Source of the DNA: an uncultured Polaribacter sp.
GTDB lineage: Bacteria; Bacteroidota; Bacteroidia; Flavobacteriales; Flavobacteriaceae
Direction of reading: 5' to 3'
Length of the DNA stretch: 64,000 nucleotides
NCBI GenBank assembly: GCA_943787375.1
Contig: CALSME010000001.1
Location: forward strand, 284,142 to 348,141
Made by a program: the position numbers and the translations under genes. Position 1 is the stretch's first letter. Every line of letters begins with the position of its first letter. Below the pieces are notes generated by a model. That model did no database searches. It saw only the letters and a list, made by a program, of their open reading frames with translations, and had not been told where the DNA came from. This document shows positions 18,077 through 51,155 of the stretch, piece by piece.

Positions 18077-19120
18077 TTATTTCAATATGAGTTTGCCTAT
18101 TTTATTGTTGCCAGACAACCACGCTGTATTTATATCTACAAACTGAATGGCATAATAGCCCTCTTTTGATACCTCCTTCCATGTCTTTCCAGCATCATTT
18201 GAAAAAGCAATCCCTGTTTTACCCACTGCAAAAATCTCTTGTCCCTGAGTTCCTGGAACATATTGTACACAACTTTTATAGTTTGGAATTTGCGAATCTG
18301 CAACCAATTTCCAAGTTTTCCCACCATCAGAAGTAATGGCTTTATTTGCGGTGTTTTCTGAGGACTTTGAATAATCTCCGCCCATTATAATTCCATGATT
18401 CATATCATAAAAATCTATAGAATAAATACCTTGAGGCCCTTTTCCTTGAACGATAGGGGTATTGTAAATTTCCCAGGTTTTTCCATAATCGTTTGATTTT
18501 AAGATTCGTGCTTTTTTTCCTCCAGAAGCAATCCATACCGTACTTCCTTTTATTTTTATATTGGTATTGCTAGCTGCAAAAAAAGCTTCTCCTTCTTCAA
18601 AAATTGGTAATGAGCTACAGGGTAATTTTTGCCAAGTTTTTCCTCGATCTTCTGTGACAATAATAGAAGCACAATTTTCTGTTGGATCTCCTACTGCAAT
18701 TGCATGCACCTTATCTTCAAAAAAATGCATTGCGTCATAAAATACCTTTTCATTCTTTTCTGAATAAACCAAACTTGTTTTTCCTTCTGATAATTTATAT
18801 AACAAAGCTGGGTTTCCAATCGAAAGTGCAAAATAATCGGTTCCATTAAAAGCAATACTTCTAAAATTAGGTATTATGGAGTCTTGGTAGCTAGGGAAAT
18901 AAACTTGTGAACGCTTTTCATCTTCTGAAAAAATCCCAATGATACCGCTTGAGCCTGCGAAGGCAACACTAGTTGAATCGATGACTTGGATTGCTCGAAT
19001 GCTTGTATTTTTTATATGAAAGCTTTTTATTACTACAGATTCAATGGTTCTAGGTTGATAGGGGGGTTGGCAAGAAATTAAAATAATTGCTACCAAAATA
19101 AGGATTGGAAATCTTTTCAT
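18077..19120 (-). CDS. YCF48/BNR-repeat (sialidase-like beta-propeller) lipoprotein, often annotated oxidoreductase
   Basis: Lipobox ILISCQPP; repeated S/TxDxGKTWxxV (DRGKTWQKL, DYGKTWEIY, DGGKTWKLV, DAGKTWKEV). Confidence 0.8.
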   Translation of the reverse strand: MKRFPILILVAIILISCQPPYQPRTIESVVIKSFHIKNTSIRAIQVIDSTSVAFAGSSGIIGIFSEDEKRSQVYFPSYQDSIIPNFRSIAFNGTDYFALSIGNPALLYKLSEGKTSLVYSEKNEKVFYDAMHFFEDKVHAIAVGDPTENCASIIVTEDRGKTWQKLPCSSLPIFEEGEAFFAASNTNIKIKGSTVWIASGGKKARILKSNDYGKTWEIYNTPIVQGKGPQGIYSIDFYDMNHGIIMGGDYSKSSENTANKAITSDGGKTWKLVADSQIPNYKSCVQYVPGTQGQEIFAVGKTGIAFSNDAGKTWKEVSKEGYYAIQFVDINTAWLSGNNKIGKLILK

Positions 19121-19167
19121 TTTTGATATTTTTACACAACGAAATTAATGAATACAAATTGAGTTTT

Positions 19168-20088
19168 ATGAAAAAAGCATTGGTAATTTCTGGTGGTGGG
19201 AGCAAAGGCGCATTTGCTGGGGGTGTTGCACAGTATTTAATGAAGGAGGAAAGAAAAGAGTATGATCTCTTTTTAGGAACTTCTACAGGAAGTCTTATGG
19301 TCTCGCATTTAGCATTAGGAAAATTAGATGCATTAAAGAAATTGTATACCAATGTCGATCAAAAATCAATTTTTAGTAATAGCCCTTTTACCATTCGAAA
19401 AGTTGCTGGCGAAAAAGTAATTAGTATCAATCACTTGAACACACTTTGGAACTTTATCAAAGGAAGAAAAACATTTGGTGAAAGCAAAAATTTACGAAAA
19501 CTCATTAAAGAAAATATTACACTAGAAATGTACGATTTAATTAGAAATAATCATAAAGAAGTGGTGGTAACGATTTCTAATTTAACTGCCAATAAGATTG
19601 AATACAAATCGATCAATGATTGTTCATATGAAGACTTTTGTGATTGGATTTGGGGATCTTGTAACTATGTGCCTTTTATGAGTTTGTTAGAAAAGGACCA
19701 TTGCCAATACGGAGATGGCGGTTTCGGAGCTTTAATTCCAATTCGAGAAGCCATTTTAAGAGGTGCTACAGAGATTGATGCCATTATTCTCGATACAGAA
19801 GTTACTCAATTAAATCGAATGCCTTCTAAAAACCCTTTTTCACTGCTGTTTGATGTATTTGACTTTATGCTAACCCATGTCGAAAAACACAATATTACCA
19901 TTGGAAAATTAGCCGCAAACAATAAAAATGTTACTTTAAACTTATACTACACTCCAACGGTTTTAACCACAAATTCATTAGTGTTTGATAAGAAATTGAT
20001 GCGCTCCTGGTGGGAATCAGGATTTATCTATGCGAAGACGAAACAAGAAGTGGATATGAGTGCGTTTAGGCCAAATACAATAGACTAA
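19168..20088 (+). CDS. Patatin-like phospholipase
   Basis: VISGGGSKGAFAGGVAQYL and GTSTGSL (GxSxG); DGGFGALIPI; start at internal MKKALVISGGG. Confidence 0.87.
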   Translation: MKKALVISGGGSKGAFAGGVAQYLMKEERKEYDLFLGTSTGSLMVSHLALGKLDALKKLYTNVDQKSIFSNSPFTIRKVAGEKVISINHLNTLWNFIKGRKTFGESKNLRKLIKENITLEMYDLIRNNHKEVVVTISNLTANKIEYKSINDCSYEDFCDWIWGSCNYVPFMSLLEKDHCQYGDGGFGALIPIREAILRGATEIDAIILDTEVTQLNRMPSKNPFSLLFDVFDFMLTHVEKHNITIGKLAANNKNVTLNLYYTPTVLTTNSLVFDKKLMRSWWESGFIYAKTKQEVDMSAFRPNTID

Positions 20089-20089
20089 T

Positions 20090-20870
20090 TTATTTGAATT
20101 CAAGATACATATTGTTTCCTGTTAGTGTCGTTAATTTTGAATTTGAAATTTCTTTTGGGTATTCTTTTTTTCGAGAATGAAAATCTCCTCTAACTCCTGT
20201 TAAGACGTAATTGATGGATCGGTCAAGAAGCGGATCAGTTTGTTCACCTAAAATACCTAAATTCCCGAAATATTCTCCCAATTCAATTCCAGGTAAAGTT
20301 ACTTCAGGAAGATATCCATTGATTTCATTTTGATTGTCTTTGTTTGTAATTTCAAAGACAATAGGTTGTATTGCATAGCGATGATTTAGATTAAAATTCG
20401 AGCCATTTTTCCTAAAACCATACCTCTTGTAACGCCCTTTGTAGTTGCATCCGATTCTGGAATTACATACCTCATATCACCAATACATTGCTCATAGTCA
20501 TTTTATGACGAACCAAACCAAACTCTATTCCGTTGTTTAGCGTAACCCCATGAAAAGCATTTTCTAGTACCGTATAATTATTAACAATCCATGAAAACCG
20601 ATCCGTTGGTCTTAAAAGCTGGCCTTCAAAAATATTTTCTGGATTTGAAAATCCCGCGAGATAATTGTTCAATGTTGTTTGAGATTTAAATCGGTTGTCA
20701 GCTAATTCTGGCTTTAAACTTTGCCAAAAATAGTAGGCATTTAAGCCCTTACATACAAAGTCGTTTATTTCAATGTTTTTTGGAATCACTTCCGTTTTAG
20801 AAGCGCAATTATATAAAAAGAATAGCAGTAATAAAACCAGTTAAAATATACGAAAAATAGCAAATTTCAT
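20090..20870 (-). pseudogene. Degraded S41 family peptidase lipoprotein, catalytic core missing
   Basis: ATG at 20870 with lipoprotein signal interrupted by TAA (20841-20843); N-terminal VIPKNIEINDFVCKGLNAYYFW...FSWIVNNYTVLE...FGLVRHK; frameshift near 20495-20510; then RYVIPESDATTKGVTRGM joined directly to NLNHRYAIQPIVFEITNKDN...LGILGEQTDPLLDRSINYVLTG. Confidence 0.8.
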
Positions 20871-49030: not shown

Positions 49031-50002
49031 TTGAAAAATAACAATACGATCCTAAATACAGCAAAAGAAACGATTCTTCTAGAAAGCAATGCAATTGCAA
49101 ATCTAGCAACTTTAATAGATGATAACTTTGCAGAAGCAATTACTTTTATACTTGCATCCAAAGGTCGTGTCATTGTAACTGGTATTGGTAAAAGCGCCAA
49201 CATTGCAAATAAAATTGTAGCCACTTTAAATTCTACAGGAACTCCTGCTATTTTTATGCATGCAGCAGATGCAATTCATGGAGATCTAGGAAATGTACAA
49301 AAAGACGATGTTGTTATTTGTATTTCTAAAAGTGGAAACACTCCCGAGATAAAAGTTTTAGTTCCATTGATTAAAAATTATGGAAATAAAATTGTGGCGA
49401 TCACAGGAAATATCGATTCTTTTTTGGGTAAAAATGCAGATTTTCCTTTAAATACTTTTGTAGAAAAGGAAGCATGTCCCAACAACTTAGCACCAACGAC
49501 CAGCACAACTGCACAACTTGTTATGGGAGATGCCATTGCTGTTTGTTTGTTGAAATTAAATAACTTTAGTAGCAAAGATTTTGCAAAATACCACCCTGGT
49601 GGTGCATTGGGGAAACAACTCTACCTAAGAGTTTCAGATTTGATTAAGAACAATCAAGTGCCACAAGTTTTAGAAAATGACAGTATTGCTAAAGTAATTG
49701 TAGAAATTTCTGAAAAAAGATTAGGAGTAACCGCTGTTCTAGATGCTAAGAATGCAATCGTTGGAATTATTACTGACGGGGATATTCGAAGAATGTTGAG
49801 CAAATCGAATACAATTGATCGTTTTACTGCCAAAGATATCATGGGCAAAAACCCAAAAACAATACTTAATGATGCAATGGCGGTTGAAGCATTAGAAAGA
49901 TTAGAAAATAATAATATTACGCAAATTTTAGTAACAGATTTGGAGAATAAATATATTGGTGTTGTACATTTACACGATCTAATAAAAGAAGGAATTTTCT
50001 AA
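49031..50002 (+). CDS. kdsD: KpsF/GutQ family arabinose-5-phosphate isomerase
   Basis: VTGIGKSANIANKIVATLNSTGTPAIFMHAADAIHGDLG plus two CBS domains; TTG start. Confidence 0.92.
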   Translation: MKNNNTILNTAKETILLESNAIANLATLIDDNFAEAITFILASKGRVIVTGIGKSANIANKIVATLNSTGTPAIFMHAADAIHGDLGNVQKDDVVICISKSGNTPEIKVLVPLIKNYGNKIVAITGNIDSFLGKNADFPLNTFVEKEACPNNLAPTTSTTAQLVMGDAIAVCLLKLNNFSSKDFAKYHPGGALGKQLYLRVSDLIKNNQVPQVLENDSIAKVIVEISEKRLGVTAVLDAKNAIVGIITDGDIRRMLSKSNTIDRFTAKDIMGKNPKTILNDAMAVEALERLENNNITQILVTDLENKYIGVVHLHDLIKEGIF

Positions 50003-50815
50003 TGACGCAACAAAAAGAAATGTCGTTTTTATCGCATCTAGAAGAACTAAGGTGGCACCTGGTTCGAAGTGCTGCCGCGATCTTTTTATTAGCAATTGTT
50101 TTCTTTGCTTTTGCGGAAGAAGTCTATAATAATTTTTTATTAGCACACATTCAACCAGATTTTATTACCTATCAACTCTTTTGTGATTTCTTTACGTTTT
50201 TTGGTTTTGAGAGTGACTTTTGTAATATTAATTTCGCAGACAAAAAACTACAAAGTATTAAAGTAACTTCTCAATTAATGAACTCCCTTTGGACTTCATT
50301 TATTTTAGGAATTATTGTTGCATTTCCTTATATTTTATGGGAGTTTTGGAGATTCATTTCACCAGGTTTGCATAAAAATGAAAGGCGTCAATCTAGAGGG
50401 TTTATTTCCATTGCTTCCCTATTATTCTTTTTGGGAGTTGCGTTTAGTTTTTATGTGATTGCCCCAATTTCGATTAATTTCCTATACAACTATCAAATTA
50501 CAGATGCGATTCAAAATAATTTTACACTAGAATCTCATATTGGATTAGTAACCAACATGATACTTGGGGTATCTGTACTTTTTGAACTTCCAGTAATTAT
50601 CTATTTTTTAGCTAAAATTGGATTAATAACACCTGCTTTCTCTAAAAAAATACAGAAAACACGCGCTCGTTTTTGTACTTATTATTGCAGCAATTATAAC
50701 CCCACCAGACGTCGCGAGTCAAATAATTGTATCAATCCCAGTTTTAATTTTATATGAAATTAGTATAAAAGTAGCTGCGATTGTTATCAAAAGACAACAA
50801 AAAAATGCCAAATAA
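50002..50815 (+). CDS. tatC: Sec-independent protein translocase TatC, frame-interrupted at an A7 run
   Basis: MSFLSHLEELRWHLVRS...FWRFISPGLHKNERR; frame 0 leaves TatC homology after KIGLITPAFSKK, while the +1 frame from 50651 reads YRKHALVFVLIIAAIITPPDVASQIIVSIPVLILYEISIKVAAIVIKRQQKNAK*. Confidence 0.88.
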
Positions 50816-51155
50816 AGTTCAAGAGTTCAATGACTATCGTCAAAAAATGAACGATAAAATACTCAGTGATGATAATAAAGTTATCAAAAGAATCTTCAAT
50901 TTAGATACCAACACCTTTAAGGAAGGTCACCTACCAACCAAAACAAAAGAATTGTTAGGCTTAGTTGCTTCAGCAGTTTTACGTTGTGATGATTGTGTGC
51001 AGTATCACTTAGAATCTGCCATGAAAAATGGTGTCAGTAAAGAAGAGATGATGGAAACCATGTCGATTGCCACTTTAGTGGGAGGAACTATTGTAATTCC
51101 CCATCTGAGACGCGCCGTTGAATATTGGGAACTTCTTGAAGAAAACACTTTATAA
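50805..51155 (+). CDS. Carboxymuconolactone decarboxylase family protein (AhpD-like)
   Basis: LLGLVASAVLRCDDCVQYHLESAMKNGVSKEEMMETMSIA; start at internal ATG overlapping the restored tatC stop. Confidence 0.88.
   Translation: MPNKVQEFNDYRQKMNDKILSDDNKVIKRIFNLDTNTFKEGHLPTKTKELLGLVASAVLRCDDCVQYHLESAMKNGVSKEEMMETMSIATLVGGTIVIPHLRRAVEYWELLEENTL

Follow-up and report, generated by a model that had tools for sequence, protein, structure and literature searches.

The 64,000-nucleotide stretch of DNA analysed here, hereafter the window, forms the end of contig C1 of an uncultured Polaribacter sp. genome (2.12 Mb, 10 contigs, 79%-complete), and its nearest named records are Polaribacter MAGs. The window contains a tatC gene whose reading frame is interrupted by one surplus base, located between two intact neighbours. 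The features of the locus are as follows.

49031–50002, plus strand: upstream neighbour, SIS + CBS domain protein (KpsF/KdsD type isomerase), intact (Pfam SIS, CBS)
50002–50640, plus strand: 5' part of tatC in the first frame, through ...GLITPAF (PF00902, E = 4.6e-50, profile 1–181; translation)
50640–50643, plus strand: extra-base site, ctct (alignment with four close relatives, in which the stretch from GC-TTT/ATT to the A run is one pyrimidine shorter)
50644–50650, plus strand: A7 run (length and frame equal in the closest relatives, L035 and L042/L018)
50645–50815, plus strand: 3' part of tatC in the next frame, KKYRKHAL...KNAK* (PF00902, E = 8.8e-9, profile 177–208)
50805–51155, plus strand: downstream neighbour, carboxymuconolactone decarboxylase / AhpD-like, intact, its start overlapping the end of tatC (Pfam CMD)

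The open reading frame at 50002–50757 encodes TatC for about 216 codons and then departs from the family, as judged by Pfam and by translation. The six-helix protein is not encoded by a single open reading frame in the given sequence; the frame changes at 50640–50643, and the two frames together cover the PF00902 model whole, positions 1–181 in the first and 177–208 in the next. Translation of the next frame gives KKYRKHALVFVLIIAAIITPPDVASQ...KNAK*, which ends at 50815 and overlaps the ATG at 50805. The broken frame and the intact C-terminus reported by an earlier, sequence-only reading of this DNA are thereby confirmed, although what that reading described as the C-terminal third of the protein is closer to a fifth, 56 residues out of about 270. 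A second, intact tatC was looked for and not found in the 79%-complete genome, which yielded only this broken copy; the genome still encodes two proteins with Tat signals and two TatA-family genes.

Position and age of the extra base

Alignment with the closest relatives locates the surplus base. The site reads GCT TTC TTA AAA AAA TAC in L035 and GCA TTC CTA AAA AAA TAC in L018/L042, which are one genome, and both sequences are in frame. The window reads GCT TTC TCTA AAA AAA TAC; its A count is seven, as in these relatives, and the surplus is one pyrimidine at 50640–50643, 5' of the A7 run. The sequence-only reading had placed the break inside the run at 50644–50650 and had proposed a check of relatives for A6 or A7. 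The two closest relatives carry A7, in frame, which moves the lesion upstream of the run. The A7 run is ancestral, and, since the closest relatives have it in frame, it is neither the lesion nor a feature that arose as a rescue. Among all fetched relatives the A run differs in most. The site is in frame at 110 of 110 loci from other genomes, some of these genomes being represented twice; only the two loci that are the window itself are out of frame. In the tatC family search, every one of the 57 relatives with a hit gave a single match, full-length and free of stops.

The two sides of the break were also compared with respect to substitutions. Relative to L035, differences in the 213 codons on the 5' side of the break number 28 synonymous and 7 nonsynonymous, against 2 synonymous and 0 nonsynonymous in the 56 codons on its 3' side; the comparison with L042 gives the same pattern. 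The protein encoded by the 3' part is identical to those of L035, L018 and L037. Decay as a pseudogene was considered and rejected, as no nonsynonymous change is present downstream with respect to the two nearest relatives, a weak argument over 56 codons only.

One-base insertions elsewhere in the assembly

A scan of 1.03 Mb (contigs C1 and C2) against the largely collinear relative G023, for which 792 ORFs had good matches, revealed six genes that are broken in this assembly with both parts intact: tatC and the LeuB-like, PNPase-like, AddA/UvrD-type helicase, Mfd-like and phosphotransferase-like genes. Gene names except TatC are readings of the sequences, not profile hits. The Mfd-like gene carries two insertions, so that the events total seven, all of them +1; besides tatC, six further insertions thus lie in five conserved genes whose downstream frames are intact. 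All seven lie outside runs of four or more bases. The one-base excess was confirmed at each site by alignment with the close relatives G059, G023, G019 and G060 (at the AddA site with G023, G019 and G060). G059 is the closest genome, with about 97% identity at two loci. Four ORFs were set aside as unclean: one at the C2 end that is integrase-like and has two one-base losses, one that is regulator-like and diverges at its end, and two that are small and doubtful.

The LeuB-like gene (3-isopropylmalate dehydrogenase, G000:C1:164932-166045) lies outside the window and has one extra base, with the break near 165486; a leucine auxotrophy inferred from it would probably be false. The insertions in the Mfd-, AddA-, PNPase- and phosphotransferase-like genes are found on G000:C2 near 462450, 462509, 467520, 560344 and 622682. 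Around its break, the PNPase-like gene (G000:C2:558796-561031) is 94% identical to G019 and ~80% identical to G023 and G059, which elsewhere are nearer than G019; this pattern suggests recombination between lineages. A shared +1 recoding word was sought and rejected. TCTA occurs in both tatC and leuB when compared with G023, but leuB of the closest relative reads ACT CTA, and the PNPase, AddA, Mfd and phosphotransferase sites have no word in common.

The insertions display a two-allele signature, defined as two adjacent bases of which either can be dropped to leave synonymous codons. It is present in six of the seven, compared with 32% expected for random insertions (p = 0.006), the exception being one Mfd insertion. 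The signature words are Leu (T/C)TA in tatC, Thr AC(C/T) in LeuB, Gly GG(A/T) or Phe TT(T/C) in the phosphotransferase, Gly GG(G/A) in PNPase, Ala GC(T/G) in AddA and Leu CT(A/C) in Mfd. Of the six genes, four have both alleles represented among the relatives; the second allele of AddA and that of Mfd were not seen in the aligned relatives. Because the two-allele idea was drawn from the same data, the test supports it and does not prove it.

Clean one-base gaps, coding and non-coding, were also counted against G023, the sole comparison genome, and were not polarised. For gap bases in runs of one or two, the additional base belongs to this genome in 124 cases and to G023 in 70 (p = 0.00013), an asymmetry of which a part could be due to G023 losing bases. 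There is no excess in runs of four or more (74 and 72, respectively). Conversely, genes intact here and broken in G023 have mostly lost one base there, in several instances within a homopolymer. The two assemblies thus differ in their style of error, as expected for artefacts. At 19105–20088, the window contains a 327-residue ORF that is intact here and broken in G023 by a T5 to T4 loss, likely a homopolymer error of the G023 assembly. On the minus strand at 20389–20660 lie weak, frame-shifted remains, possibly a true decayed gene, of an ORF that in G019 is open and 175 residues long.

Origin of the extra base

The presence of the same kind of extra letter in other conserved genes makes an ordinary assembly error, not biology, the most likely explanation. 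On the comparisons above, the extra tatC base is most likely a consensus error, probably arising from merged strain variants, and the organism very probably possesses an ordinary, intact tatC. The sequenced population would have held both TTA and CTA as the leucine codon beside the A run, and the consensus would have written the first letters of both, giving TCTA. The sequences agree with this scheme: the codon is TTA in L035 and CTA in L018/L042, the surplus base in the window stands at this two-allele site with both first letters in tandem, and similar insertions recur elsewhere in the assembly. The retained TatA-family and Tat-signal genes and the lack of nonsynonymous change after the break are in keeping with it. 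The merging of strain variants, rather than another consensus fault, would then be the cause. The sequence-only reading had offered a very recent lesion, an assembly indel and slippage as options; the indel is the best supported, though by another mechanism and at another place, and slippage gained no positive support.

A real, very recent frameshift in the sequenced strain, by which a pyrimidine was gained before the A run and the cell was left without Tat export, is unlikely. The given sequence itself reads this way, short indels do occur, and the undecayed downstream frame fits a very recent event. The same explanation, however, would have to hold for no fewer than five further conserved genes (PNPase-, LeuB-, Mfd-, AddA- and phosphotransferase-like), broken equally recently and in the same manner. 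Spontaneous frameshifts favour homopolymers, and the window alone has 118 runs of seven or more, yet none of the seven insertions falls in a run of even four. If the break were true, one strain would simply have lost Tat export recently. The truncated TatC, if made, should lack helix 6 and the end of helix 5, and hence should not work, since helix 5 forms a TatB/TatC contact in E. coli (PMC5102672).

Far less probable is a real base accompanied by full-length TatC made through transcriptional or +1 ribosomal slippage on A7. Homopolymer slippage that rescues frameshifts is reported in bacteria and chloroplasts (review PMC5009743; PMC8254509), and in principle a Lys-tRNA could shift by one base and pair again within A7. 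In such a case the lesion would be a change of length within the run, but the run is inherited, is equal in the in-frame closest relatives and differs in most others; nor do the other broken genes have a slippery word in common with tatC. Because the A7 run is not the lesion, both slippage on it and an ordinary homopolymer-length error, with one A too many called in the run, fall away. The latter, which would likewise produce a surplus of one base near this position, is scarcely credible: the closest relatives with an intact tatC have seven A's, the surplus is the upstream pyrimidine, and the assembly has no excess of one-base gaps in runs of 4+. The alignment contradicts it unless the Leu codon was simultaneously substituted to TCT. 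That the insertions are real and the lineage reads certain four-base words (e.g. TCTA, which in tatC replaces a leucine codon of the relatives) as one step, with several conserved genes still expressed despite their extra base, has almost no probability, given that the insertion sites lack a common word.

The consensus-error reading has consequences for the use of this assembly, in which one-base insertions that are probably false recur as a class; these matter wherever the assembly is used to call metabolic gaps or pseudogenes (tatC, leuB, PNPase). The locus also illustrates that a one-sequence reading can mislocate a tempting "homopolymer frameshift".

Comparison with known systems

The intact tatC genes of the Polaribacter MAGs L035 (JABJPX010000001.1) and L042 (OX044355.1), both PF00902, have 95% DNA identity to tatC of the window over the whole gene, with the same neighbours and the same A7. 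They differ from it by one base fewer before A7 and by a single open frame. Frameshifted genes rescued by slippage (review PMC5009743) resemble tatC of the window in having a homopolymer beside a one-base frame break; in tatC, by contrast with those genes, the run has kept its inherited length and the break falls outside it. A documented parallel to a merged consensus is found in the collapsed assembly of Trypanosoma brucei, in which nearby allelic variants gave indel errors and false frameshifts (PMC8445201). There, as proposed here, the apparent frame breaks were differing alleles merged in the consensus. In T. brucei the alleles belonged to two homologous chromosomes and the reads supplied the proof, whereas in the present case they are presumed strain variants in a metagenome.
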